From assembly GCF_001540865.1 (NCBI RefSeq), contig NC_033629.1:7059403-7123402 (forward strand): a DNA stretch of 64,000 bases, given 5' to 3'. Below, in pieces: positions 1 to 62,116 of the stretch. Position 1 is the first letter of the stretch, and each line of letters opens with the position of its first letter. The notes under the pieces were generated by a model, which worked only from the letters and a program-made list of their open reading frames with translations, was not told the DNA's origin and did not search any database. A program made the position numbers and the translations under genes. This stretch comes from Ananas comosus. Its lineage: Eukaryota; Streptophyta; Magnoliopsida; Poales; Bromeliaceae.

Positions 1-798
1 TCCTATACGACGTCCGCATACAGTAGCTGATATTCCCCTCAACCACACTAGTAAACGGCTACCGGCTCAAGCGGATGTTGTTGTCAAAAGTACGTTCATA
101 TCTCTACCGTGGCAAACTCCGGGAGATACCCGCCTTCACAGCCAGAGGATATGTGAGCCCACTACACCCACTCGTACATCTCAAGCCGGGTCTGCACAAC
201 GCTCTTCGTCTCCTCTTTCAGGCGGAACGAGCGTTCGCTGACGAGTGCCGCGTCAGCTCTGTCTTTTCGATACGACTATCCGCGGCAGCTCTGTATCTTA
301 GATGCCACCCACTGGCGCATAAGAATTTTCAAAGCGGTTACACCCACACTTCGCCAAACCTCACGCCCTTTCAATTCAGGGGACATATAACTTGGTATAC
401 TCTATAACCTCGCTCAACCGTGCCATCGGATAGCTGAACGGAACGGTGGCTTCGAGCGCCTACATGTGTTACACAAGGTACAGAGGTTGGAAGCGTTCAT
501 GTAAATACTGGAGATCGTACGCTACGATATACTTGGCGGCCTTGAAGTTCTTCTGAACTCGATGCTCCTTAAAGGCCACTACCAATAGCGGGTTCTTCAC
601 GCTTTTGACGCTTTAGCGCTCTAAGGGATGTACTTCTAGGCCACCTCGTTAGTACTACTAGCGCTCCGGTGGACCCTTGAGCTCTTAGACTACTCTTTCG
701 TAGTAGGAGTGAATAAACTCCTTATTCCATATCTTTGACTCAAAATTAATTCAAGTTAGTCAAAGCTCCTACTTTGAGGAAAATTCCTCCCCTCCTAC
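1..798. pseudogene. Ty3/gypsy polyprotein C-terminus (integrase and chromodomain), readable only in the complement
   Basis: In the in-place complement the frame contains AEFAYNNS (near 63-86) and EALYGRKCRSP (near 115-150), the integrase core end of chromovirus-type gypsy elements. It then has a GPY/F-like GKLSPLYIEPYEIL (near 365-406), HNVFHVSNLRKY (near 468-503) and a chromodomain-like tail with WELENLM (near 672-692). The polyprotein ends in EDETPFKEGRM and a stop that overlaps the first bases of the LTR at 797. A frameshift lies between the integrase core and the GPY/F part (near 330-365). Family knowledge: this order (integrase, GPY/F, chromodomain) marks Tekay/Del-like chromoviruses. 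The element is damaged as well as mirrored. Confidence 0.88.
784..796. promoter_or_regulatory. Polypurine tract before the mirrored 3' LTR
   Basis: In the complement the bases read AAGGAGGGGAGGA, followed at once by TGTAAGG. A purine run directly before an LTR primes plus-strand synthesis in LTR elements. This fixes the sense of this LTR family: it begins TGTAA and ends GGGCGTGACA. Confidence 0.7.
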
Positions 799-3014
799 AT
801 TCCTTCACTTAAGAGCTTTAGGCTCTCAACCTGAAGTAGGTCTTAGCTGATTAACAGCTCACCCATCCGAAGCCTTTTCAATTTCTAAAAGTTTTGTGTT
901 TTTCATGAAACCTCAGTTCAGGCGCTCTCGTTTCTACGTTTTTATACGTAAACCGTCCAAGACGAGAGCCCCTGGCCAGGGACCGCCACCCCTGGCCAAG
1001 GGCATTCGTTCTTACGACCGTCTCTTCCCCAGACGCGACTCAACGAGAGCCCCTGGCCAAGGATCGTTCCTTCCTGGCCAGGGGTATTGACTCCAACGCC
1101 GTCTGTCGATTACGTTGGCCAGGGACCGTTCTTCCCGGCCAAGGGTATTCGCATAAACCGACTCCACGAGAGCCATCCCTACGTTTACCTAGGCCCAACC
1201 ACCTCGAGGTGGGGCTAGGCGGGGCTTACCCCACCATTCACCCTTTTGTTTTATATCTTTTTATATTGGGCGGGGCTTAGGCGGGGTTAGGCGGTTCATT
1301 TACCTCGCCCTCCGCCCTCTGAGAAAAGAAGGAAGTTAGATGGGGCTAGGCAATTTTTAGGCGAGGGCGGGGCGAGGGCGGGATTAGGCGGAGCTTACCT
1401 CGCCATTCACCCTCGGTTTTTTATTTTACTTTTCATTGGGCGGGGCTTAGGCAGGGCGGGTCTATTTTTTACCTTGCCCTCCACGCCCTTGAGAGGGCGG
1501 GGGCCTAGGCGGGGCAAACGTAGGGATCGAGAGCCCCTGGCCAGAGAGTAGCCCTCCTGGCCAGAGGGTCCCTGGCTAGAGAGCACGTCCCTGGCCAGAG
1601 AGCACGTCCCTGGCCAAGGGCATACGCACTTCCGACCGTCTCTCGGAAGGAGGGCGTACCTAACGAGAGCCCCTGGCCAGAAGGGCTGCTCCTTGGCCAG
1701 GGAGGCACGCTTTTGACGAGTCCGTTTCGTCAAACTCTTTACTTTTCAACTCCCCGAACCGACGTTAATACGGAATCAATCTCTCATATCTCTCGTTTCC
1801 CGAGAGAGAGGGAGAGAGTAAAGGGAGAGTTGAGAGTAGAGAGAGAGGGAGAGAGAGATCTTCTTTTCTTTCTCTTCTTTTCTTCCTCTTCTTCTTCTTA
1901 CTCTTTACTTCCTTTTCTTCTTCTTCTTCCTCTCGCTCGATCCCTTCCGAACCTCGTAGAAGAGCAGAAGGAGAGGAGAGGTAACCTCGATTGGATCTCC
2001 ATTCGAGAACTCGGGATTACCATCTTGAATTCCAAAAACCCAAAAACCGAAAACTCTACTCCAGTTTATCTGGAGATCGTGATAATTATCACCTTATCTC
2101 GATCTTCGATCCCAAGATATCACGATTAACGTTCTACACTTGGAATCCTGTGGGTTTACCCCCAAAAACCTTTATGTACTCTAACTAGAGTAAATCACCG
2201 AACATTTGGATAAACTATCCACAGATTTGCGCCCCCGCTTCAGCCTAAAAGCCAAGTAGCTCGCCCATTTTTCGATAGCCGCTTTATATCAGCTAACTCG
2301 TGGCAAAACCTGGTTCCTCCGGTTCTGGAGTAGCATTGTAAGCAACCCTTCGCAAAGATCTTGGAAGTATGGAGTTTTCCACCTCCCACAGTAGGGTTTC
2401 GTTGGCTTGAAAAAAGATACAGAATCTTTATGTATTAAAAGTAGAGAACATACAACGTAACATCCTAACGTAATATCATGGAAAAAGAATACGAAGATTT
2501 ACAATTGGATCACACGTACCTTATGAACCACTTTAACTATCCATTCCTAACCCAGCCTTATACCTAGGATATCACGGTTTTCTTTCTCTACTTGAGCTAC
2601 CAATAAGTCACTGTATCTCTCACCGTAATTACATCACATGAACTGTGATTTCCAAGTACTTGAATCCCTATTCACCTAAAGGATCTTTTACTGAGCACTT
2701 GTTACTTGAATCATCTCGATTTATTGATACGTACTTACAGCTTTATCCACTCAAGGCTCTCTTACAACCAGGATCAAGCATCCCATAGGAGTGCACCTCT
2801 CCTATCTAGTTCGAGTGCCAGACAATAAGCCCTATCATTTCGGTAGGTATAGGAGTGTACCTCTCCTAACCAGCAGCTCATGAGGCCTCACAGCCCGCTA
2901 ATCCTGGTGAACCTCCAGGCCTGGTGTACCTCCAGGTATCTGCCAGGGCTCGAACCCACGTGAACCTCGAGGGAGGGGTGAAACCCTAACTTTTCACTCA
3001 ATAACCGCTTGGGT
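797..3014. mobile_element. Partial 3' LTR of a gypsy element, mirrored
   Basis: In the complement the LTR starts TGTAAGG at 797. It then carries an array of GGGACCGGTCCC-like palindromes (about 960-1710 in the given text), a GA-rich stretch (about 1790-1980) and an AGAGGTAAGCTC word. The segment near 2620-2900 matches the middle of the level-2 LTR. The same order is seen in the correctly oriented LTR at 8431-11068. The LTR stops at the N at 3015 without reaching GGGCGTGACA, so it is truncated or the remainder lies elsewhere. Confidence 0.82.
1175..1527. mobile_element. hAT-type MITE inside the mirrored LTR
   Basis: The 353-base insertion has perfect 12-base terminal inverted repeats (ATCCCTACGTTT and AAACGTAGGGAT) and is flanked by 8-base copies CGAGAGCC at 1167-1174 and 1528-1535. 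Complemented in place, the end reads TAGGGATGCAAA, a usual hAT MITE terminus, which independently supports the mirror reading. The interior is rich in GGCGGGGC words. Caution: CGAGAGCC-like words also recur in the host array. Confidence 0.7.
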
Positions 3015-3015
3015 N
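3015..3015. other. Single ambiguous base at the edge of mirror block 1
   Basis: One N separates mirrored sequence on its left from normally oriented LTR sequence on its right. Confidence 0.9.
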
Positions 3016-4553
3016 ACATATAATCATCATCCAAAGTAGTCTATACTTAGCATCTCATGCATTCTTTTAGCATTTAATTCATTATACATTTCATCTCATT
3101 GGTAGGTAATATCAACTACATAGTATGTTTCAAGCATTCATATTATCATGTAAGCCTACCAATACAACTATATGCATCAATGTGAATTCGTATGTTTCTT
3201 AGACATAAAGGGCGACCTAGTCGCTTCGGTAAGCACAACCCACCTCATATCGCATTCCGATTGCTTGTCGACACTTGCAATCGGCCTCCCGCGGCACCCG
3301 TATCCGGTTCGACCCGATTTTGCTAATACTCACCAACCGTGGGTCGAATCGCGGCTCCGAAAATTATAGGTCTTCGGTTTTGTGCCACAATGCTCCAAAC
3401 CCATTTTCATGATTTTACGATGTCGCCTCGACCCTCCAGGCAGAAACGAAGCCTAACGTCCGTTTCTTTAATAACTTCACAACGGCTCGACGAATCGCCG
3501 AACCGACTTCGCCAATGCGTTCGTTTACCTAGCAATTAGGTTTACGGAGGGAGGGTCAAATGAGATCAAACCCTACTATTTTACAAAACCCCATTCGGAG
3601 CCCTAATATGCAATTAGCCTCCAAATAATCTAAATTAAATGGAGCAATATGCTAACAATGTTCATTAGAGGCTATTAGAACACTTAATGTGAAGGATTAA
3701 GCCAAATCCCAAAAGCTTACCACAATGTGAACGCCGCGACGAAAACACGTCGCTCCAACGGGCGTACGAAAGCTCGATCCGTCGCCTCCAACGCGTTCGC
3801 AAGCATCTTCTCCACCAACGCCCCGAATTTGAGCGAGAGATTTGGAGAGATGAGAGAGAAATCTAGAGAGAGAGAGAGAGAGCTTTCTCTCTCTCCATCA
3901 TGTATGCGTGTGTGTGGTGTGCGGGTGTGGTCGGCTGAGGAAGAAGAAGCAAAAGGCTTCTTTATATATTACACCCCAAAACACTATTCACTTCCGAGCA
4001 GTTCGAAATCTGATATTTTTTGCCGGAACTCCCTGAACATCCGTTTGAGCTCAAATTTGACAGTCATATTCAGTTTTACTCAACGAGTCCAAAGAAATTT
4101 TAATATTTCAGTTTCGACCCCATTTGGTGACCGAAAACTATACCGAACTGTAATCTTTATCAGATAGCTGTCGGATTTTATTTTTCACCTTCCGGATGTC
4201 AGAATGACATGAAACTTGAAATCTAGCCTCATAAAATTAATTCTGACATATCCTCCAGTTTTCATAATTTTCTGACACTGTACATTTTTTGCTAATTTAT
4301 CTGCCCCGTCTCTCACAGAAAACTCTAAATTTTTTATTTTCGCTCCGATTTCAGCACAGGTCATTTCCAACTTATATTTCACTTCTCTAAATCCAATAAA
4401 AATAGTATGTCATACAATTTTTATTTATTTCTATTTTTATATTTAAAATTCGGTATATTACATTCCACCGTAACCTCACCGGAACCATTCAAATGGCTTT
4501 CCAACCAAAATGTACACTGTAACTTCATAATTTTAAAAGTCCGGTACCTTACA
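3016..4553 (-). mobile_element. LTR fragment, TGTAAGG end, normal orientation
   Basis: Read on the - strand this starts TGTAAGGTACCGG at 4553 and runs left to the N at 3015. The segment 3190-3560 matches 31510-31870 on the same strand (GGCGACCTAGTCGCTTCGGTAAG-type words). The segment 4180-4250 is the reverse complement of level-2 LTR sequence near 12290-12370. It is the U3-side half of an LTR of the same family as its neighbours. A TSD cannot be tested because the other end is lost at the N. A GA/CT run lies at 3866-3900. Confidence 0.75.
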
Positions 4554-4931
4554 ATGTGGTTCTTGGTTTTGGTTATTACGTTGTAACTCAAATTCAGAAC
4601 AAGCATGTTTTATGAAATTTGAGTTTTGGAGCATGATTTAGTATTTTAGACAAATTTATATGCTGAACTTGGAATTGACTTAGGAGAAAACTCATTAAAC
4701 CTACACCGTCATTTTTCGAAAAGTTACCAGATTTAGCTTCGGGAGCTACTGTACTTTTGTATCCCCGCTGTTAGTACGTATTGGATACTCAGATTAGTGT
4801 AGGGTGAGTTTACGCTCGTGCTAAGGGCCCGAGCTCGTTTTACAGTAGAGTGTAGACTGTTCTGTACTGTCGGGTGCCGTCGTGGTTGACGGTGGACCTA
4901 GAATTGCATCAGACTGTGCTAAGGGCACGTG
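4554..4931. other. Unassigned flank, ending in the 5-base target site ACGTG
   Basis: No coding frame or recognisable element. It is the left half of the sequence into which the level-1 LTR inserted. It continues at 17461 after the second ACGTG copy. The words GTGCTAAGGGCAC and GTGCTAAGGGCCC suggest an older LTR or internal retroelement region, but I cannot place it. Confidence 0.4.
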
Positions 4932-6383
4932 TGTCACGCCCCGAGCTCCGCCTATTTGGTCGGATTCGAGCACGCCAACAGACCGCCGAACGGATAGAGT
5001 TTTCCCCTGTTCGTCCTAGGCGTCACATATCCATACAATGCAATACACGAGGTTCCAATCAGGAACAGTATTCAAACATAGATTGCATAAGTATCAAAAA
5101 TATAAATGCTAAACTATACTATTACAAGCATTCATCTCACAGTTTCTTTTTTTACATGTTACAACTTCCAAATACCACTACTGGGCGAGGAGAACCAACA
5201 TACCCGTTGAATCACTACCGGGCGGGGAGAACCAACATATCCGTAGTTCTGATTCACTTGCTTCATAGCATACTGGGTGAGGAGAACCAACATACCCGTT
5301 GAATCACTGTCGGTCGAGGAGAACCAACATACCCGTAGTTCTGATTCACTTTTTGCCAATCCTCTTGTCTCAACCACTGCACTTGCAGTCCCCATTCCTA
5401 GGGATTCCGGAATCCACTTCCAAAAAATTAAAGGTTTAGCACATGCCCTATTGTTAACCTTTCTAGGTTTAAACCATTCATTTCCTAATGGTCCTTCTAC
5501 CACTATAATCCACAACTTAGTTTCAAATACACTAAGTGTCACTATACATCATGACATAGGTTCAATCACGCTATGTTCTATGTCATTTCTATCTAGATCT
5601 CGACTCTAGGTTTCCTTATTCAACCTATGTTCAATGACACTAGGTTCATGTCCAACCTATGTTTAATAACACTAGGTTCATGCCACTCGATCTACTTATC
5701 ATCCTAGTTGTCACACCTAGGATTGTAGTTTACATATTCTCACTTTATAACTGTCGAGTTCTCTAATCAACCTAGAGTTATCGACCCATATTCAACTCAT
5801 ACGAATCTAGCATGTTCACAATATGTCAACGTTCATATATCATATAGCATTACTGTAAGGTGCCGAACTTCTGAGGTTATGAAGTTACGGTGGAATATGA
5901 TGTACCGGAATTTTGAATATAAAAGTAAATATAAATAAAAATAGTATGAGATACTATTTTTATTGGACTTGAAGAAGTAAAATTAGACCTGGCAAACGGG
6001 CGGGTTGGGTAACCCGTGTGTGGGTCATTGTACCCACGAGTCATATGGGTATGGGTAAAATTTATCCGCAAATTTTTGGGCAGTCGACATCATTACCCAT
6101 ACCCGCCCGCGGGTGGGTGGGTGGGTATGCGGGTTACCTATAAATTTTTTTTTCTTTTTTTACTTCTATACTTTCTAAATACAAAACACATATATAAAAT
6201 TTTTAAAAGCGTAACATAATTCACTGCGTAAAATATCACAAAATACAATAAAAATATTTAAAGCCTTAAAGCGAATAAATTTCATAATATAAAAATATTT
6301 TACCATCCCAAATTTTCATGATATCAAATTAATAAATTTTTCATAATTATAGAGTCAATATAATAAAGATAAACCACCAAAAC

Positions 6384-6481
6384 TCAATCCACAACTGTCG
6401 CTTTAGTAGTTGATTCTCTTGATTCTGGAGTTTCACCAATATTCAACAATGGCACCACAAGATCGTTGTCGTCGTGTTCAT
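6384..6481 (-). pseudogene. Last exon of the hAT transposase, normal orientation
   Basis: On the - strand, ATTTTAAATGTAG ends an intron at 6482 and the exon reads to a TGA at 6384-6386. It encodes an acidic, Ser/Thr-rich tail beginning DEHDDNDLV. The matching donor (G followed by GTAATAAAT) is at the end of the hATC exon inside the mirrored block, so this exon ties the block to normally oriented sequence. The intron includes the 48 bases (6515-6562) that reappear mirrored at 7933-7980. Confidence 0.7.
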
Positions 6482-6562
6482 CTACATTTAAAATTTGAAA
6501 TAATTAATTCTCATAGAATAAAAAATATTATAATATTAATTTAAAGTAAATAAATTTATTAC

Positions 6563-7980
6563 NGTAGTGTAATCTATTGCGATCGTTAACACTGTTCTAC
6601 CTCCCCTAGAACTTCTCAGTCGAGACATACGTTTTACGTAATAATACATTACCTTTTATAAAAGTACACGCAACAAGACGAGTATAGAATTTGAACTAAC
6701 AAGTTCTCCCAAATTTTCAAAGATCATACCGTGATGTATTCTAAGCTCTTTCATAATTCATGGAATTCTTGTCACTCCGTTCTAACTAATTTAAACGTCT
6801 TGAACGTTTCGTTTGTCTACAATGATGAAGTTACGTAAACGCGTACCTATATACGTGATCCACCTTGAGGTGTATAAACTACGATCTCTTACGAGAATGT
6901 AAAGCTGTACAAAAATACGTAATAAGAAACAAACTAAGTGTAATATTTATAACAGGAAGTTTACTACTCACCCTATCCCGCCTTTCCTATACACTAAAAA
7001 ATCTTGGTAAAATACTCTAATGATGAGAAAATAGGCCAAGACTTATAGGTTGACGTTTAAACATGAAAGGTTCGCACACCTTTTAAGTTTTCGCGGAAGA
7101 ACTTCTTCGGCTCTCACTTCTACTTTAATATTCACTGTACCGTTTTGTTTACTTTAGGTTCAAACTCTTTATAACCCTATTAATATTACACTATAACCGA
7201 TAACGTTAATAAGAACTAATCCGGAGCGTTTACTCATTCGGCCGAGCGCAAGCCGAGCGCAAGCCTAGCTATAAGCTGAGAGAGTTTTAGTCCAAATAGG
7301 TTGATCTATGGATCTTCTACGTGTTCCGTCTTTCTATGAGTGTTCGGTTCTTTCACATTGTTAACAAGCCGTTCTTAACATAAATGAAAAACTTTTTATA
7401 CAACTTTTCAAAAGACACGTTCGGGTTCTTTTTAGAAGTAGTTGATGATTAACAAGATGACCACGATTTTCTTTCTTTTTACTGTAAACACATTCAATAA
7501 GAAATCGAAAAAGAAATATCAACGTCAATAAGTTTATGAATTGAAAAAACATATAAATAATTAAAAAAAACATATAAATAACAGAAATTAAAAATTTACA
7601 AAGTTACCAAATCCTGAAACTACCGAAACTATCACTTAAACCGCAGTGATCGTTTAGACTTAATCTAGCTATAAACCTCCTCTGTTTCAAGCTAGCATAT
7701 TTTGTACGATTTAACTTATAAGAACTAAAAACCTTCCTATTAACACAAGCCATAGGTTAAGAAAGATTCTACCGCGCACTATAATACTCGTATGGTTATT
7801 GTTGGCAACGAAGTCTTAGACGAACATCGTAACCTTCATTTCACGAGTGTTTCATGGCTTCAAGTGAAACTGGTCTTTTACGAGTTCAAAACTAGACGTG
7901 TGCTTCAACCAACATACCTATACTTTAATTTCCATTATTTAAATAAATGAAATTTAATTATAATATTATAAAAAATAAGA
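6563..7980. other. Mirror block 2: hAT transposase middle and hATC domain, reversed but not complemented
   Basis: Complementing in place gives a long open transposase frame. From 6565 it reads ITLDNAS, then FHVRCSAHILNLIVQ (near 6660-6705), RWNSTYLML (near 6860), FLEPFYEITTLLSGSEYPT (near 6995-7050) and LAIAIILD (near 7190-7219). After a relic insertion come an intron and the hATC domain with SELDRYLEE, RYPILSKMARDIMSIPITTVASES (split here at 7740-7815) and YRSSL. These are diagnostic hAT motifs in the right order. Neither real strand encodes them. The preceding GIEKKIF ends at 7981 on the - strand, and the complement of N-6564 continues it in frame. Inference: block 2 was inserted reversed. 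Confidence 0.95.
7220..7290. mobile_element. Relic of a GAGCCG-type hAT MITE inside the mirrored transposase
   Basis: In the complement the frame breaks after LAIAIILD at TAGGCCTCGCAAATGAG, followed by GGCTCGCGTTCGGCTCGCG. This matches the ends of the MITEs at 49373-49893 and 50205-51179. The frame resumes later (YLEDAQGRK), with the expected residues in between missing. This shows real decay of the gene before any assembly error. Confidence 0.55.
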
Positions 7981-8430
7981 AAATATTTTTTTCTCAATTC
8001 CCCAATCTTTTAAGAACTCAAAAACTTTTTCAGATAGGACAGCACCCGAGTGTGGAGGAGGAAGATGACAAAAATTCAAAATTTTACTATGCAATATCCA
8101 ATTTTCATCTACAAAGTGTGCTGTTAGGCAAATATACCCTTCACTTGTGCAAGATGACCACAAATCAGAAGTAAGACATATTCTACTAGAAACCTTCCCT
8201 AGAATATGCTTAATATTTTCTTTCTCCCTTTTATGTATTTTCAGGCAATCGGTCTTTGCTGTGTTTCTAGTATAGGGTTTGACGTCCTCATTCAAGTAAA
8301 AATGCACATCCCTAATTCCTTCATGCGCAGCAAATGAGAAAGCATAATTGTGTTTCATAATTGCAATCGCCATCTTCTCACGATAAGTTTCTTGGTTAAA
8401 TTTTTTTCCACGTAATTTTGCCTCGTAACC
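7981..8430 (-). pseudogene. hAT transposase core, correctly oriented part
   Basis: The - strand frame from 8430 leftwards includes MAIAIMKHNYAFSF, RICLTSDLWSS and ICLTAHFVDENW, ending GIEKKIF at 7981. TSDLW carries a catalytic Asp of the hAT DDE fold (family knowledge). It is separated from the BED finger by the level-4 LTR. The codon at the insertion point, GGT-TAC, shows that the frame ran through the site before the LTR landed. After 7981 the text switches to the mirrored block, so apparent stops there are artefacts. Confidence 0.85.
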
Positions 8431-11068
8431 TGTAATATACCGAAAATTCAGAAAATAAATGTCGAACTTTAGTCAAATTGACTAAAGTGCGAGGACGGTA
8501 CATTTCGGAAAGTCCGAAGGTGTTAAAATGATTAAAAGTGAGTTGCGGGAGGTTGTCGAGAGCTATAGAATCAAAATCTGCAAACTGCAGACTTTGAGCT
8601 CTCGGGGACTGGTCCCTGGTGGGAGAGACCGGTCCCCGAACGCGTATGATTTGAGACAGCCGAAAAATCGGCTAAGTCCTGAGAAATTAGCTCTCGGGAA
8701 CCGGTCCCTGCCTGAGAGACCGGTCCCCGAGAGACCGGTCCCCTAAAGAGAGACTGGTTGCACCGCGCGCGGCAGCTCTGGCTGTGCTGGGACGACCTTC
8801 GGGAACCGGTCCCTGAAGGAGAGACCGGTCCCCGACTGCGCGAACTGCCCAGTTCGGGCAGTGTAATGAGATCAAAGCTGAGGGACTTATCTGCAAAAAT
8901 GCATTATGTGGGTCATGTTTAGGGTTGAGAGAGCCTCTCCCTCTCCTTCCCTCACACCTAAACTCATCCCTCTCCCTTCCTCTCTCTAGAAGACAAAGAA
9001 GGAGAAGAAGAAAGGAAGGAAAAGAAGGAGAAGAAAAAGGAGAAGAAGAAGAGGAAGTGAAGAAACTCCCTCTCCCTCATCTCTAGCTTGGAAAATGAGA
9101 GCTTACAAGGTAAGCCTTGAACCCTAATTATGGTGGGACCTAATTTAGGGTTTGGATTAAGCTTAAGATGGGTTTTATGGAACCATTTGAGTATTTGAAG
9201 TTTTCTTTTGCTTCTTTTGAGATCAAAACCATGGTTTAGCTCAAAGGTGAGCTTCAACCCACCTCTCATGGTGAAATCCAAACTAGGGTTTGGAATGAGC
9301 TAGGAATGGTTTAGATGAACTCTTTAGAGTACATTGAAACTACTTTTACTTCCCAATGAGATCAAACCCTAGGTTTGATATATGTATTGGAGCTAGAGCA
9401 CCAAGTTGGGGCTTTTGCTCATGGGAATTTCTAAGTGCAATTGACCCTCTAGAAACCTAATTGGGGGTATTTCCGACGCGTTGGTGCGTACGGATTAACA
9501 TTCCGAAGAACCAATGAAAAGATATGAGCAAAATGACCTATTAGGGCTTCGTTTTGCCGCAGGTAAAGAACGAGAAGCCTAAAAATCCCGAGAAAATCGT
9601 CGGAGCACCTTTGAAAGCCTACAAGGTGGGTGGTGCTTCTCAAACTCATTGAACTTCTCTTTATGCCTAATGTGTCATTCATTTGAACATGTGTATATAT
9701 ATTGTTGCATGCATTTTAGGGTAAAGTAATGATAAAATGTGATGATGCACGATTGTGAGTACAATTTGCATAATATGATGAATGAGAACTAAGTAAACGT
9801 CGAAAACCCTATGTGTATGCATGAGAGGAAGGTGAGCACCCAAAGTGAGCAAAAGAACAGAGTGACACAATGACATAGATCGAGTGGCATTTGATAAAGT
9901 TAAAGTGAAATGACACTAGAGATAGTGTGAGGTAAAGAACCAACGTAATGTAAAGAATGATGAAAAGGATAATGTGTAAAGTTAAAGTAAAGTGGGGCAA
10001 TAAGAACAAAAAATGTAACGAACAAGAATGCTAGAGCTAGCAGAAGTAAAGAAATGTAAAGAATGTGATTGCATGAGTTTGCAACATAAAGTGATGTAAA
10101 GGACACTAGAGCTAGTGTAAAGTCAAGATTGAACTTATAAATCCTTTGAGTTAAGGATATGATCATACTTGCTATGAGTTCCGTGCTCGAGGGCGGTCGC
10201 TCCCCCTCGGGCGATGCGCTCCGGAGTTATGCATCACGGGTTGGAGTAAACCCGAAGGACGGTCCTAGCGGGTGAGTTCCTGCGATGATGGACTTAATGT
10301 GAAACAAGTTAATGTGGCGAAACCCCCGGGTTAGCCTTGAGATTAAAGAACAAAGAGCAAAGAACAAAGAACAAAGTGTAACGTGAAAAGAACAAAGAAT
10401 TTGCATAATCTGCATTTATTCAATGTTGAGCATATTTCTGCTTATTGTTCAGGCATATTAGCATCATGTATAGATTGGTTACTATATGCAGCTTATTCTT
10501 TCTATTATGCCTGAGTTAGTCCTAGTGGGAAAGTCGGTGATGTTGAGGCCGAACCCACTGGGAACTTTGTTGTAGTTCTCACCCCACTATTCCACAGAGC
10601 CGGGACCGAGCGAGCTGGCGAGCGACCGAGGCAAAGGTATCGCGCCTTAGTCAGAGGCCACCAAAGTTGGATTTCATTTTGTAGTAAAGTACCCTATGAT
10701 CATCCTTTGTATATGATGATAAATGATGTAAAGAAAAGAATGTAATATGTATTTTGAGGTAAATGTGATGTAAGAAAGAAATGATGAGATGAAATGGAAG
10801 AAATTCAAAGATGAACCAGATGAATGAATGTATATGATCAAAAATGAATCATAGTACAAATGAATGTTTAGTTTCCTTATTCTTTCACTAATGGCTATTG
10901 CTTATCCTCGTATAAGCCGTTTGTGTATATATTTCCGCTAGTGCTTTTCTCTATTGATGAAAATGTACATGTGATGAGCCTTGGGCGGATAGAAAAAACT
11001 CTGTCCGTTCGGCGTCTGTTTGACGTGCTCGGGCCGGCCCAAATTGGTATCGGTCCCGGGGCGTGACA
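8431..11068 (+). mobile_element. Level 4: solo LTR inserted in the hAT transposase gene
   Basis: It begins TGTAATATACCG at 8431 and ends GGGGCGTGACA at 11068, with perfect 5-base TSDs TAACC (8426-8430 and 11069-11073). At 2638 bases with no second LTR and no coding region, it is a solo LTR. Features in order: GACCGGTCCC array 8600-8845, GA-rich 8940-9060, TACAAGGTAAGCC near 9105, and AAAGAACAAAG repeats near 10340-10400. It splits the BED finger from the core of the transposase. Confidence 0.93.
8600..8845 (+). repeat. Palindrome array, ACCGGT core
   Basis: At least seven copies of GGGACCGGTCCC-like words (variants ACTGGTCCC and AGACCGGTCCCC) sit in about 245 bases of the U3 side of the LTR. 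A second array is at 32370-32590. A third, seen as CCCTGGCCAGGG, is in mirror block 1. Confidence 0.85.
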
Positions 11069-27121: not shown

Positions 27122-27663
27122 TAGGTCTTGTGTGCTGCTATTAGGAGCACGGAGGCCTCGGTGCTCCTAAGCTGTTTTCGATGATGGATCTTTCAAATCG
27201 ACGGTCGGCTCCGTTAGACTTGATCTAGCGTATTTGAAGTATCTAGAAAATAAATTTTGCGATTTTTCGATATTATTTGCCTAGCGATCGAAAGGGTTCA
27301 AAATCAACGGCTGGAAATAAAAATCTCACAAAAAGTGGTGATATAGTACTAAAATTTTCGATCAGAGACATTGATCTTGCTGTAAATAGTATAAAGAATT
27401 TTCTAGCAAAATTTCATATGATTTGAATACTTATACACCGTTAAACTTGCAAACGGTATACATCAACCATTAAAAATTATTTATTTTAAACCCTTTCGAT
27501 CGCTAGGTAAATGATGTCAAAAAATCGTAAAATTTATTTTCGAGATATTTCAAATACGCTAGATCAAGTCTAACGGAATCGATCGTCGATTCGAAAACTC
27601 CATCATCGAAAACGGCTTAGGAGCACGGAGGCCTCCGTGCTCCTAATAGCACACAAGACCTAC

Positions 27664-27759
<96 letters not shown>

Positions 27760-30700
27760 TAGGCTGGTATACTATCGGTAGCACGGAGGCCTCCGTACTA
27801 GCAAGTTGTTTTCAATGATGCGGCTTCCAAATCGACGATCGGCTCCGTTAGACTTGATCTACACTATTGAAAGTATTTGGAAACTAAATTTCATAATTTT
27901 TCAGCATCATTTACCTATAAAACGAGTAGTCTGAAAATGAACGGTTGAAAATAAAAATCTCATAAAAAATAATAATAAAAGACTTGAATTTAAGATCAGA
28001 GGTACTGATCTTACTCTAAATAGTGAAAAAAATTTTCTATAAAAATTTCATTAGATTTAAATTGTTTTACACCGTTAAATTCACAAACCCATCACATCTA
28101 CCATTAAAATTGTCAATTTTGAGACCTTTTGATCACTAGGTAAATGATACCGAAAAATTATGAAATTTAGTTTCCAAATATTTTCAATGGTGTAGATCAA
28201 ATCTAACGGAGCCGATCGTCGATTTGGAAGCCGCATCATTGAAAACAACTTGGTAGCACGGAGGCCTCCGTGCTACCGATAGTATACCAGCCTAGATCTA
28301 TATATATCTGTTAGATTTGATCTACACTATTGAAAGTATTTGAAAACTAAATTTCATAATTTTTCGGTATCATTTACCTATCAAACGAGTAGTCTAAAAA
28401 TGAACGGCTGAAAATAAAAATCTCATATAAAATGATGATAAAATATTTGAATTTAAGATCAGAGGTACTGATCTTACTCTAAATAATGAAAATAATTTTC
28501 TATAAAAATTTCATCAGATATGGATTGTTTTACATTGTTAAATTCACAAACGCATCACATCTACCATTAAAATTGTCAATTTTGAGACCTTTTGATCACT
28601 AGCCAAATGATATCGAAAAATTATGAAATTTAGTTTCCAAATACTTTTAATAGTGTAAATCAAGTCTAACGGAGCTGATCGTCGATTTGGAAGCCGCATT
28701 ATTGAAAACAACTTGGTAGCACGGAGGCCTCCGTGCTACTGATAGTATACCAGCTTAGCTCTCTATATATATATATATTATCATCCCATACATATTAATG
28801 TAAATGTAAATATGTAATAGTACTAAAAAATCTAGATGTCCATATTCGTATCCTTTTTTTGTGGACATCTTTGACTCTCTAAAACCATATCCATATCCAT
28901 ATCCATATCCAACCTGATCCAAATATTTTCAATCCAGATATGGATAATATTGAATATGGATGCGAATATTTTCAGATAATATCTAATCTGTTTTCACCTC
29001 TAAAGGCAAGCCTAAGATCTCTTCTTGGGAAAAGAAAAGCTCCAAGCTTTGAGAGCATTTTCTACTTGCGAATTTTGCTCAAAACATGTTTTTGCAATTC
29101 AAGAACCTTCAAAAAGTAGAAGTGTTATCGAGTACACTGAACAATTTTACCAATTGATGGCTCGCAATGACATTCAAGAGACGAAGGAGCAACTTTTTGC
29201 AAGGGGTGGTATAAAAGTATCAATTCGTGACGAAGTAGAATTACAAACAATGAATATGCAGGTTACATGATGCTTTTCAACTTGCTCTTAAATTGAAGCA
29301 AAATTAACTAAAAGTGGTTAAGAAAAGTTGTTGATGTGTGCAGTCTTTATCCACCTACAAAGGATGAGTCCTCACATATGATGTTGGTGCTACAAAATTT
29401 GGTGGTCCTGCGAAGACCACGACCAATCATGGAGGATAGTCAAGTCACACCAAACAATCTTCCACTTGTTTTAGTTAAGTAAGGTGGTCGCTATGCTCGT
29501 GAATGTCTGTTGAGGCGAGTGGACGTTAGCATAATAATTGTTGATGTAGAGTGCAATGAAGAAATATTACTTGTTTTTAGTTAAGTAAGGTGGTCGCTAT
29601 GCTCGTGAATGTCTGTTGAGGCGAGTGGACGTTAGCATAATATTTGTTGATGTAGAGTGCAATGAAGAAAAATTGAGATTTTTTAGAAGAACCAAGATGT
29701 CACGCCCCGCGACCGCCCGCCTATTTGGCCGGGTCGCGGCGCCGCGAACAGACCGCCGAACGGACAGAGTTTTTCCTGTATGTCCTAGGCGTCGCAACCT
29801 GTACAATACAAGGGTTCTAACTAGGAACTGATCTCAATCAAGATTGCATAAGGAAGTATCAATAACAAAAAACTAACTGCTATTACAAGCATTCATTTCA
29901 TACACTTTATACATCACACCTTTTCTTTTACATGTGTTTAACTTCCAAATACAATCACATTATTTACATTTAATACACGTTGGTTGTTGTCATCCCATTC
30001 TAACCCCTAAGCCCTGCTGACTCGGGGTACTACTATCTCAGTCTCTGGGGTAGGGCGCTATCTACGAAGCTACGTCCTTGCCTCGCGCCGCCGCGCCGCT
30101 CACGTGTGTACCTGAAACACCCCAAAACAACGTGGGGTGAGAACCAACTCTATGATTCTTAGTGGGTACGACCACCCAAGGGAAAAGCTCGACCAATAGG
30201 TCCGAGGAGGCACTGCAACATGTTAGTTCAACAATATACAACAAATATATATTCAAATTGAAATACATGCCATGCCTCACAATATGCGATATGAAAATCA
30301 TGCAACTATAGTAGATCAATTGATTCTACATTTACTTGGCTAATTTTAGCTCATAACATTCAACTCTAAGGTTTCTATTACCTTAGGATCACACTCAAGT
30401 CCACTGGCTTCTAAGGTCTCTATTACCTTAGCTCTAGCCTCTATCACTAGCTTATAAGGGTTCCACTACCCTATCGAAGCTATCCACCCGACTCGGCCTC
30501 GAGTCAATCATCCGCGGATATTCCGCACACTGGCTGCTCAACAGCCTACCGCTCTCCGTGACTTAGCTCTTAGCGCTGAAATCGTTGCACACGATGAACC
30601 CGGCTCAAGTCCCTTAACATAGCCATTCTGGCGGCGAACATGTTGCACTTACCTAGCGAGGACTCAAGTCATGATCTATCCATCTGGCGGCGAACTAATC

Positions 30701-33700
30701 GCACCTCACCCAACAATGGTTTCAGTCACGACTCAGCCACCTGGCGGCACCCGTATCGTACTTACCCAGCAATGGTTTCAGTCAATCCCGGCGGTCTGAT
30801 CCACAATTGGCTTAACTATCCGGCGGCGAAATCGTCGCCCACGCCACGACAATGGTTCAAGCCTCGGGCGGTAAGCCCCATGTGCTCGCCCCCGATCCTC
30901 CCTAGGTATCAACCTCGGCGGCGAAATCGTCGCACACGCCCTAGCCTTGATACCAGGGTCATCACAAGTTTTGGGATTCCGGAATCCGCTTCCACAGGTC
31001 GAGGGTCCATAACCAACCCTATGCTGTCGACCTAGAACATCCTTGTCGTCGCTACCACTATGCTCAACAACCTAGGTTCAATGTCACTCTAGGTTTATTA
31101 CATACGTAGCTTAGGTTCCAATACTCTAGGTTCTATATCACCTCTACCTAGATGTCAACTTCTAGGTTCACTTGTTCGATCTATGTTTACTAACACTAGG
31201 TTCGATGCCATACACACCTAGATTTGTTCGACTCTAGGTTCACTTGATCAACCTATGTTCTTTAACACTAGGTTAGGTGCCACTCGATCTACTTGACATC
31301 CTAGTTGTCCAATAGAGTATCTAATTGTCCTCTATCCGGTTCTCTTGTCAATCAACTCTATTAATTCTAGAGTTATCAACCTAGTTTACGTGCATATCCT
31401 CACAACGCTAATCATGCGTTCTATGATCTCTATATCATTTTATATGCATCTACTTAGCATTTTACCACATGCATCATCTATGTCATTTTATTAACATGCA
31501 TCAATATGAATTCATTTTACTTAGACATACAGGCGACCTAGTCGCTTCGGTAAGTACAACCCACCTTAGTTTGCTTTCCGATTGCTTGTCGACACTTGCA
31601 ATCGGCCTCCCGCGGTACTCGACATCCGGTTTGGCCCGATCTCGCAGTTGCGCTCCAACCGCGCGCTGCTTTGCAGTTCCGAGAATTAAAGGTCTTCGCT
31701 TTGTTGTTACAGTGCTCGGGACCCAATCTCGCGATTTATGGACGTCGCCTCGGCCCTCCAGGCGATAACAAAGCCGAAAACCCTTATTTCGGCAATATCT
31801 TCTCGTAGGCTCGTCGGATCGTTGAACCGACTTCGCCAACGCGTTTCGTTACCTATCAATTAGGTTTACAGAGGGTCAAATGAGATCAAACCCTCACAAA
31901 TACCAACACTCCATTTTGGGTGCCCTAGATGCTACTATAGCCAAATCCACCAAATCGATCTATGAAATGAGGGGAATCTATCTAGATAGCATGCTAGGGT
32001 TCCAAATAAACTAATTTTAGAGATAAAAAATCCATCTCTAATGATCTACCATGAGAGGGCTTGGAAGCTTACCTCTCCAAGAAGCCTCAACCAAGGAGAA
32101 GATGAAGAGGAGGAGGAAGATCTCCTTCTTAGTCCTCTTCTTCTTCTTCTTCTTCTCTTCTTTTTCCTCCCTTCTATTCTTCTTCTCTTTCTTCCTCTTC
32201 TTCATGCACAGAGAGAGGGAGCGGCTGAGGGAGAGTGAGGGGGAAAATGTGAGGAGAGAGAGAGACCCCTCTCATAACCTTCTATTGTAACAATATGCAT
32301 ACAAGTCCCTCAACTTTCCACTCTGTGCACTGCCCAGACTGGGCAAGACCCGCGCGGAGGGATCCGTCTCTCCCTGCCTGGGACCGGTCCCAGAGGACCT
32401 TCCTCATTTCCACGCGCTCGAGAATCGGTCTCCCTGGCCCAGGGACCGGTTGCCTCGCGCGTTGCCGCAACCACCAGCCGATGGGACCGGTCTCTCCTTG
32501 CCAGGGACCGGTCCCCGAGAGCAAACCCGCGCAGACCATGTTCGGGAACCGGTCCCTCCCGCAAGGGACCGGTCCCCGAGAGCAGATCCGCCCAGTGCAG
32601 GTTTTTGCATCATTTGCTCTCGCGGACTCCATTCAAATGCACTTTTTGGGTTTCGTGCCATTCTGGCTTTTCCGAAGGCTACTCGCTCTACAGTTAGTCG
32701 ATCCTGGACGAAGTCCAACTCTCGGCTTTCGAGAATTCACTTCGTCACACACGATTTGATGAAGGGGTTGAATAGTAGTGTGAAGAGATTGCACCTAAGG
32801 AAGGAGAATTCTTAGTGATGCATAGAGCAGTCATTAGTCCAAAGGAAGATTGTAATGATGGGCTTCGAAACAATCTCTTAAGAACTCCCAGTAGATCCTA
32901 TGGCAAGGTGTGCTCTCTTGTTATCGATGATGACAGTTGCTAGAATATTGTCTCAAATATGATCAAGAAGCTCAACTTGAAAACGGAACCATGTCCTAGG
33001 CTGTAGACAATTGCATGGTTTAAAAAGGCAAAAAGTAAAGGTTACCAAGTGTTGTCTTGTTTCCTTTTCCATGGGTAAAACCAAGGATTAAAGTGCCGTG
33101 GCACGGGGTTATGCCGGAAACATGCCGGCACAGTGCGTGTCGGGCTGTGCCGATGCGTGCTGGTCAAAAAAATATATGTGTGCCGAAACGTAATGGCATG
33201 AAATATTTATTTTCTTTAGCAACAAAAAATATGCCTATTATTTATTATATATTTTTATCAAATCTTTTGAACTTTGTTGAGAAAATTACCTACTAATTTT
33301 AAGAATAGAAGGTTTTGAGTTGTGCCATCGGCATGAGAGCTGTATCGTGTCGATATCTTGCTAGCACGATACGACACGGTGGATACGGCCCGTGCCAATA
33401 GGCACTTTAATCCCTGGGTAAAACTTATAAAAATGAAGTTTGGTGTGATGTAACTCCTATGGATGTTGGCCATATGCTCTTATGTAGTTCTTGGCAATTT
33501 GATAGCAGTGTTATTTATATGGGGGGTAAAGTTAGAATTTTGGAGAAAATATTTTTCAAAACCCACGTGCATCATCGAGATGGCAGACCACAAACCATCT
33601 AATAACAAATAAACAATATGAACCAAATTGTAAATTCATAAACAAAGAGTGAAAACTAAACAAATCTAAATAAAATAAAGATGCTTCATTTAGTCTTGCA

Positions 33701-39700: not shown

Positions 39701-42700
39701 CTCTATTACAATGATAGTTTTTCATCTTCAATAAATTCATGTATATTAACTATAATACATTATAAAATTGGTCTACATGGACATCACGATCATAGCCTGC
39801 AAGACTGCAAATAGTTGGATTTCTCATGCAAGCCTAGTGCGTTGCAGTGGACTAAATTGAAGACCTTATTATATTTGAAGTGGTTGAAGAATATTCATTA
39901 AGAAATTCAGGTGGGACAAAACTAACACAACCTTGGAATGCTCCTGCCTATTGCACTAGTCAGCATAGTGAGAAATGTGCTAAAATTGCTTTGGCAGAGT
40001 AGAGTAGCCCATATCAAGGTACCTCCTGTGCCATAAAGTATTGAACCTTGCCAACATGTATCAAGGTGTGTAGGGATATATCGAATTTCATCAATGGTAT
40101 TGAACAGTATGGATGGTTGCTTTTCCCTATGCCGTGATATTCAAGGTACTAATTTAATACGACAATTCTGAAGTACGTAATTTCTACATTTGTGTGTTGT
40201 TAACAAGTATTTGTTACATAGCACTTCAATATTTAGCAAGCTACTTATTTATACAACTTTAAAAGATACGGAATTCTAAGCACAATTAGTTCCAATTTGG
40301 TACATTAGGGCCTTGAGAAGTTATTATATGGTGGCCATGGTTGCGGCGGCGGCACCAGTTTTTTCTTCTTTTTTTTGGGGGGGGCGGGGAGGGGATTATT
40401 GTTCTTGTGAATTTCACGGGCATCATGGGCATAACAACTAAAAAACTTGGAAGTAGCTGAATTTTTGTATAGAGGGACATACATTATGGGACTTGAAGTC
40501 CTTGGAAAGCATCTATAGATATATTAAATCCTGAGTTTTACTGTGGCCGACGTGTCGGCTTCTCAGCGCCTCTCTCTCTACCGTTCCCTCTCGCGCCCCT
40601 TCGGTTTCTCGCGGTTGGCGGGGGGCTTCGGTGGGACCACTATTTNTTAAATAATTTGAATTTATCATTACAAAATTTTTAAATAGTGATACAAAATTAA
40701 TGTCTAAAGTAGATCAATTCTAAATTTTTTTAACATATTAAATACATTGAATTTATACATATATTTTTTACCTACATTCAATTTTTTTAAAATAAGTGAT
40801 ACAAAATTAATGTTTAAACTAGAGAAATTTAAAAGTTTCTTAAATATATTAAATATGTTGAATTTAAATATTTGCCAACATTAAATTTTTTAAAATAGTA
40901 ATACAAAATTTCTCTAACTTAAATTGACATTTGTAAAATTTAAATGTTTAATATTAAATATTTAATATTTAAATTCAATGTATTTAGAAATAGTACTATT
41001 TCTAAAATTTCTATAATTTAAATTAATGCCTAAATTAGAGAAACGCTAAAATTCCTAAAATAAATGGCTAAATTAATGCCTAAATTTGGGATATCAATCA
41101 ATTTCTAAAATTAGTAAAAACTTAATCCCTAAGTTTAGGATATCAATGAAAAATTTATTTAAATATTTCATTGTTTAATTACAAAAATAACGAAGTAACC
41201 CTTTTACCTGCTATATGTTAAAATTACATCTTTACCTCCATTGATCAATGGTTAAGATTTTTTTTATTTTTTATAAAATAAAGTACCGAATCATTTCTCA
41301 TTGAATTTTATCAAGAGTCGGTAGTAGAAAAAATATTATTCATTTTAACTTCAGTATCAGTAAAAATCAATCTCAACTTGACAATCAATTAATAAGTAAA
41401 TAAACAGGCCCTTTGAGTACCTTGGAATATCATGCATCTCACAATTCCAAAACTTCGAGTAATTGCAAGAGCTCAATATTTTCAATTTTACATATTTAAA
41501 TTTTAAATTTCAGTTTCTAAATTTTAAATTTTACATTTTTATATTTAAATTTTGAATTTTAAAATATAAAATATAAAATATAAAATTTAATATTTGAAAC
41601 CTAAAATTTTAAATTTGATATTTGATATTTAAAAGTTAAAAATAATATTTAAAATCTAAGCTTGAAAGATGTTCATTTAAAATTTATCAATTTTGAATTT
41701 TAAATCGGAATGATAATTTAAAATTCAACTATGAAATCAAAATTTAACTTTTTATTTTAAATCGAAAATCAAACTGAAATTTTAGGTTGCCGATGTTGGT
41801 CCGTTGCGAAACGTGGGCCCTAAACTAGTCTGATTAAAAGCTTGATTTTGTGTTGAAGTTGGCTTTGTCACCATGTGTTAAATAACATTTGTAGCATCTA
41901 TGAACTAAGTTTGTGCATAGCACTCCTATTAGATCATGAGTTTGTTCTACACTACTTGTCTGTCTCCCTCAACAAATTATGGTCCGCATATTCGCCTCAC
42001 CCCTATAAAGCTGTCAGATAGAATCTATTTGCAGAAGAGAGGATAGAGATTTAGAGAAATTGGAGACAACAAATAGAAACATTGGTATAGGATAAAAATA
42101 AAGCACAGAAAGCCTGTGGGTTTTTTTATAGACGAAAGCCTAAAAGAGGTCGTGTTATTAGCTGGAAAGAAAGATGGTCCTCGACAATCAACGATTTATG
42201 ATTTACTAATGACATGGTTTAGCATTCCTTTTAATCAAGATTGCAATTCGTGGGCGTATGGCTGCTTTTGATCAAGACAACTAGTGAACGGAGTTATATT
42301 TAAGCCTGTGATTTAGGAAGAAAATATTTGAGAATGAATTGAACAATTTAAATAGCTGGTCAGCGCATAGTTATCTTGAGATACATCCTTGTATTACTTG
42401 TTGATTCTAGAATTCTTAAATTTTCTCAATTCTATCAATTATTTTTTATGAGTGACAAATAGCATTCCATTGCGCTTTTCTTGTACACCAGCTTCGAAGT
42501 AAATTTAAAAGTAGGAAAAAGAGTCACATTACGTGGCTAAAATCAAACAAATTAATAGATGTTTCATGAGCTCTTCCGTAATTTAAGGCAGATTACAGAT
42601 AGTTTAATTGTAATTTGTTTCATACTTAATCATTACAGTAAAAAGCGGCTGATTGATCAGTGTATTTACCTGCATATGCAGATGCAGTCACCGCAGTGCT

Positions 42701-50965: not shown

Positions 50966-51000
<35 letters not shown>

Positions 51001-51179
51001 GAGCTTTTCGAGCCTAATTCGAGCGAGCCGAGTAATACTCAAGCTCGGCTTGAAATGAATTTCGAGCTTTTTTTTTTGTTCAAGCTCGGCTCATCTAATT
51101 TCGAGCCGAGCTCGAGCGAGCCGAATATCGAGCCGAACGCGAGTCGAACGCGAGCGGGCTCGCTCGTTTGCCAGCCCTA
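50205..51179. mobile_element. hAT MITE, GAGCCG family, copy 2
   Basis: Ends TAGGGGTGGAAACGAGCC and, in reverse complement, TAGGGCTGGCAAACGAGC. Perfect 8-base TSDs TCTCTATC (50197-50204 and 51180-51187). It includes a (GA)n run near 50803-50821 and a (TA)n run at 50968-50998. Confidence 0.93.
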
Positions 51180-51252
51180 TCTCTATCAACCTTTGGAAAG
51201 TTAAGTGCCTATATAATGTTGACACTTTTGCAACTTAACAAAGTATTCCAAG

Positions 51253-56412: not shown

Positions 56413-56902
56413 TGTCACGCCCCGGGGTCCCCTTTTTGTTTGAAACACAGCGGAAAAGCGTTTGAATTTTTTTTTGAAAACCTGACCCCAGACTATGCCA
56501 GATCCGCCACAAATACAGGGAATCCACTGTTCACACGGACAGAGTCTCCCCAATAGCCAAATCAAAATAGGGATGATAAGACAACAATATCGAATCAGTC
56601 AAATCTACCAAGTCATAAAAATAATGAAACCTTATATACCTGAAAGTACTTGCATAATTTTCCTAAAGACCTAAACCATTTTATTTTCCAAAAGATGGGG
56701 GGCACCATCGAAGATATTTTCTATTGCCAAAAGCGCATGCTTTGTCAAAAGTTTCTAAAAAGCACCTGAAGACAAATTTGTAGCTTACATTTTGATGCCA
56801 CACTTACCACTTACATACTTACATATCGATAGACATATAAGTAAACTAACACCAACATATGACAAACATGAAAACATAACACACTGCGGCACGTTCATGT
56901 CT
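56413..56902 (-). mobile_element. Gypsy-type LTR terminus inserted in copia
   Basis: TGTCACGCCCCGGGG at 56413 is the U5 terminus of the large LTR family, followed later by CACGGACAGAGTCTCCCC. It stops at a single N (56903). No other LTR end is present, so it is truncated at the N. Confidence 0.75.
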
Positions 56903-56903
56903 N

Positions 56904-62091: not shown

Positions 62092-62116
62092 NNNNNNNNN
62101 NNNNNNNNNNNNNNNN
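62092..62116. other. Assembly gap, 25 N
   Basis: A run of N placed between the copia flank and an LTR relic. The real length is unknown. Confidence 1.

Follow-up and report, generated by a model that had tools for sequence, protein, structure and literature searches.

Plant hAT transposases of the RICESLEEPER-like type carry an RNase-H-like region and a C-terminal dimerisation region, and the same regions, in the same part order, were found in a block of the Ananas comosus assembly (block 1) once that block is turned, that is, reversed as a plain string. Unlike in those proteins, however, the reading in block 1 is broken by stops and a repeat, and it is misspelled in the assembly. A chromosomal inversion likewise leaves a segment running the wrong way between normal flanks; inversion reverse-complements the segment, whereas block 1 is reversed only and is not the reverse complement of its source. 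As described in PMC6733440, contig-end extension and gap filling of the GapFiller/SSPACE type lengthen contig ends into a gap and leave N where the gap is not closed; the present case differs in that part of the added sequence would be reversed without complement. According to PMC6022998, the data behind the pineapple F153 assembly were Illumina, Moleculo, PacBio and BAC, and the F153 dataset used there had 3380 scaffolds and 382,063,720 bp; PMC6139296 lists 381.9 Mb in 3133 scaffolds for F153.

Block 1 lies in the window (the whole stretch of DNA that was analysed, 64,000 nucleotides of contig C9), the features of which are collected in Table 1. The initial annotation had described positions 6563-7980 as a single block written backwards without complementing, and reading the block in all four string orders agrees with that interpretation of the letters. 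Its limits require adjustment, as position 6563 is a single N beside the block, which therefore spans 6564-7979, and base 7980 fits both sides, its assignment to the block or to the right contig being ambiguous. The annotation had also missed an exact 48-base mirror (string reverse) between 6515-6562 and 7933-7980, and the window was found to contain two more blocks of the kind that it reported. From composition, a mirror of this length would arise by chance at about 4e-15 over all pairs of places in 64 kb. Once turned, the block thus duplicates the final 47-48 bases of the left contig, the pattern expected of two overlapping contigs that were never merged. Both flanks of block 1 are in normal orientation, and one base is apparently missing at the right join, as would happen if the N had been carried along with the block.

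Four peptides that the initial annotation had placed in the block, namely ITLDNAS (6565-6585), FHVRCSAHILNLIVQ (6661-6705), LSGSEYPTANLYFP (7030-7071) and SELDRYLEE (7656-7682), can be read only in the complement taken from left to right or, equivalently, on the minus strand of the plainly reversed block; GIEKKIF (7981-8001) stands on the ordinary minus strand. The longest open stretch in block 1 is 80 codons on the real strands versus 218 in the reversed or complement reading, and in 200 dinucleotide shuffles of the block this length averaged 79 and peaked at 123 codons. Pieces of the block 1 complement matched hAT-like_RNase-H (PF14372, 1.2e-22) and, for the C-terminal dimerisation region (hATC), Dimer_Tnp_hAT (PF05699, 8.6e-24), both above the Pfam cut-off; no NCBIfam family was matched by the hAT piece. 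The 218-residue complement piece had 426 protein matches among the 5.8 billion proteins searched, the best with 65% identity over 100% of the query, and many of the 120 homologues listed were plant proteins named RICESLEEPER 2-like. Thus the outcome that had been set against the reversal reading from the start, a complement failing to match hAT proteins while a true strand matches them, did not occur: it is the complement that matches both Pfam families and the 426 proteins. As the hAT reading is interrupted by stops and by a small repeat at about 7219-7284, the encoded transposase looks like a relic. This repeat piece of about 66 bases is present in the window at 7219-7284, inside the hAT relic, and at 50968-51180, and its family was found reversed in the seven genome places read (of 17).

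The rest of the same gene had been claimed to lie on the normal minus strand on both sides of the block. To the right, the continuation is borne out by GIEKKIF being in place and by collinearity with homologues. Both the normal right flank and block 1 were matched by 40 homologues of the 120 listed; 39 of these have exactly one residue between the last residue of the flank (7981) and the first of the block (6565), which makes the upstream protein part collinear in the right flank, and in the remaining one the flank match ended one residue early. Flank and block 1 therefore adjoin if the block is turned. The flank piece to the right of block 1, searched alone, matched no Pfam family. To the left, the complement of block 1 ends in ...ATTAAAG/GTAATAAATTT, and the minus-strand left flank opens from 6562 with the same GTAATAAATTT and runs to ...TGTAG at 6482, ahead of the exon at 6481-6384; the intron-donor text that closes the complement is GTAATAAA... 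The splice link of the initial annotation thus stands as text, with a donor in the block and an AG before the exon, and the exon itself remains a proposal.

Table 1. Positions of the reversed blocks in the window and of the features adjoining them (a dot, no strand assigned)
Feature	Position	Strand	Remarks
Block 2, in-window part, repeat DNA spelled in reverse	1..3014	.	Collinearity and arrow statistic
Single N, right end of block 2	3015..3015	.	
Proposed last exon, normal orientation	6384..6481	-	AG acceptor 6483-6482; one frame open to stop
Left contig end	6515..6562	.	Exact mirror of 7933-7980; minus strand carries intron text
Single N	6563..6563	.	Beside block 1
Block 1, apparent hAT transposase relic, reversed without complement	6564..7979	.	
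Right end of block 1, mirror of left flank	7933..7980	.	7980 may belong to right contig
Upstream transposase part, normal orientation, ends ...WGIEKKIF	7981..8308	-	
Third block, high-copy repeat spelled in reverse	56552..56902	.	Left limit uncertain by about 2 bases
Single N, right end of third block	56903..56903	.	

Block 2 begins about 310-430 bases upstream of the window. When the reversed window was compared with the window itself by BLAST, the reversed intervals 797-1127, 1741-1933 and 2145-2245 were collinear with 31827-32749 (best E 1e-62), and in the window self-comparison the real strands of block 2 matched only inside the block itself. Open-frame length is uninformative for this block, with 201 codons as written, 218 reversed and up to 275 in shuffles, and a 118-residue piece of the turned block matched no Pfam family; its repeat DNA is presumably LTR-retrotransposon-like. 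Repeats of the GGGACCGGTCCC type are frequent in the window (962-1702, 8597-8835 and 32483-32596), and within block 2 they take the form of CCCTGGCCAGGG-like text, their plain reverse, which provided the first clue to this block.

For the third block, six copies of a high-copy repeat were fetched for comparison. The reversed letters of 56552-56902 matched four normal copies with 98.0, 96.3, 92.6 and 90.4% identity over 352-354 bases, the best being L034 (98.0% over 352 bases), and two more copies with 96-97% identity over 195-201 bases, both of which end at an N; as written, the best match among the six copies was 41 bases (27 bits). In these copies, sequence like the normal left flank is followed directly by sequence like the reversed block, leaving no room for an N at window position 56551; the assignment of one or two bases at this join is ambiguous. 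The left flank itself belongs to a high-copy repeat, for which there were 1769 first-look candidates, 40 of them scored. In two of the six copies (L035 and L037) the sequence becomes unrelated from a single N onwards, which suggests that single Ns mark places where joins were forced within repeats.

An arrow statistic, derived from a fourth-order k-mer word model of both strands, was computed over 291,008 bases; the three blocks known by then were kept out of the training, and each 10-kb chunk was left out of its own training. At switch costs of 12 and 8, block 2, block 1 and one downstream block were called, and the laxest cost, 6, gave one additional call, a block on C8. Block 1 scored -39.7; of 2000 control stretches of 1417 bases, drawn at random outside the three blocks, 2.55% were negative and the lowest stood at -7.3. 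The 351-base third block was missed by the statistic (+4.4), and its normal-looking homologue on C9 scored -3.6. A suspected block at about 4480-4930, raised by a weak composition signal, was dropped, not disproved; it had no match in either orientation, and the later arrow test was silent there. AT-rich mirror matches near 41484-41728 (107-119 bits) were set aside by judgement as low-complexity, and GA-repeat mirror matches of up to 61 bases were filtered as low complexity. The window also contains dense inverted repeats of 29-51 bases at 27210-28647, and at 62092-62116 a gap of exactly 25 Ns that differs in style from the single Ns.

Outside the window, a reversed string with a 915-codon frame was found on C9 (locus L013), about 11 kb downstream of the window end and right after a 5000-N gap. 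Positions 617-3420 of this locus give 915 codons reversed versus 69 as written, and 200 shuffles give at most 150. The reversed frame matched RNA_pol_Rpb1_5 at 4.7e-19 and RNA polymerase beta'' models at 6.5e-83, the beta'' scores lying below the whole-protein cut-offs, as expected of a partial protein, and this reversed-only frame is a plastid-type rpoC2. At L013 617-4500 (C9 7,134,019-7,137,902), the rpoC2-type frame, readable only when reversed, is followed by sequence in normal orientation that we take to read like plastid atpI. Because of this combination, the interval is likely to be a plastid DNA insertion in the nuclear assembly. On the left side of the 5000-N gap, neither inspection by eye nor a comparison of short matches revealed plastid sequence. 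On C8, locus L021 contains a block at about 5341-6267 whose reversed string aligns at 615 bits to sequence in its own vicinity, the match ending two bases before an N; the arrow score of the block was -11.8 versus +6.7 in its copy.

Block 1 as written was also searched against the genome (381,958,007 bases in 3128 contigs, C1 being 24,880,688 long). It matched its own locus with 100% identity over 1417 bases, the only full-length match, and among the best candidates, which were scored, pieces of 43-73 bases were matched at 17 other places on 14 contigs. Seven of these 17 places (L002-L008) were tested, and all seven are reversed-only at the match. When reversed, the matches fit copies in the 291-kb set at 288-328 bits with 91-96% identity, versus 75-96 bits as written, and in four places the as-written match was to block 1 itself. 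Misspelled query letters therefore retrieve other misspelled letters.

Altogether, twelve blocks on seven contigs (C9, C8, C10, C14, C16, C373 and C1730) were read, and five of them abut N, with a single N at the edge of four and the 5000-N gap at L013. Ns occur somewhere in the roughly 3-kb loci L002 (25 and 12), L003 (1), L004 (105) and L006 (898), contact with the blocks being not proven, and L005, L007 and L008 (2785-3066 bases) contain no N. The 291-kb set, from which L001-L008 and L033-L038 were excluded for this count, has 16 single Ns, four with a reversed-only block beside them and 12 without a detectable block, where short or unique blocks would escape detection. Three of the four block-bearing single Ns lie in the window, itself chosen for one of them, and away from the C9 stretch the proportion is one of 11. 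Mirror overlap is confined to block 1, there being none longer than 11 bases at the other 15 single Ns.

The reversed-only blocks almost certainly reflect an assembly artefact, present on seven contigs or more, rather than the way the plant DNA itself is arranged. Since the same fault occurs in the window and on other contigs, with five of the twelve blocks beside N, it is very probably a systematic assembly error and not an isolated oddity. Taken at face value, the letters would describe real DNA that was reversed without complement by an unknown event, for instance parallel-strand or template-free copying. We know of no DNA event that gives reversal without complement, and established antiparallel copying offers no route to it. 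The probability of such an event appears negligible, given that five of the twelve blocks abut N and one carries an unmerged contig overlap, that the affected sequence types are unrelated (hAT, high-copy repeats and an rpoC2 frame), and that one block is 90-98% identical to normal copies, which is unexpected for a rare old event. Inversions and antisense copies, on the other hand, are common in plant genomes, and a plain inversion, or an antisense copy that has diverged, might be misread as a reversal. It is extremely improbable that this explains block 1, however, as an inversion is a reverse complement and readable on a real strand, where block 1 has no frame above 80 codons and where the genome search returned only block 1 itself at full length and pieces of 43-73 bases.

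An alteration of the letters after assembly, during sequence preparation, is very unlikely, as the same letters stand in the genome (100% over 1417 bases) and further reversed blocks occur outside the window on the same seven contigs; the blocks at L013, L021 and L002-L008 therefore do not reflect an alteration of the window file alone. A variant of the assembly fault is conceivable but doubtful, in which the blocks would be whole small contigs and a scaffolding script would have reversed minus-oriented contigs without complementing them. Block 1 does overlap its left neighbour like an unmerged contig, and one N in the block 1 reading frame fits an N that was reversed along with the block; the turned 56552-56902, by contrast, continues its left flank without room for an N, as an extension would.

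Within the assembly fault, a contig-end extension or gap-fill step in particular is probably the source. Such a step would build sequence for one strand, and the extension would then be complemented without reversing, or reversed without complementing, the resulting string being contigA + reverse(extension) + N + contigB, or its mirror image. Applied to block 1, this would mean an extension attached to the right contig (from 7980 on) that grew as far as the left contig and overlapped it by 47-48 bases, the two then being joined through one N without merging. No report of a fault that reverses without complementing was found in the open-licence literature at the level of search listings, nor at that level in literature on the one-N habit of scaffolders, nor in PMC6733440. 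The bookkeeping differs between blocks, because a base seems to be missing at the right join of block 1, whereas there is no room for an N at 56551. Further points against the explanation are the 12 of 16 single Ns that showed no block and the three of seven genome loci without an N.

The fault may be detected simply, by aligning the reversed assembly string against the assembly itself. It is a class of fault and not biology, yet it would be missed by ordinary checks, because standard aligners compare a sequence in its given and reverse-complemented forms but not as its plain reverse. Quite probably, the backwards, uncomplemented spelling affects hundreds to thousands of contig-end stretches in this widely used plant reference. 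Such stretches would go unnoticed by standard alignment and gene-finding programs, conceal repeats, interrupt genes and plastid insertions, and could be mistaken for 'novel' or 'orphan' sequence. If the fault is genome-wide, such stretches would be counted as unique, unannotated DNA, genes would be truncated at the joins, and the affected sequences would look orphan-like in comparisons.
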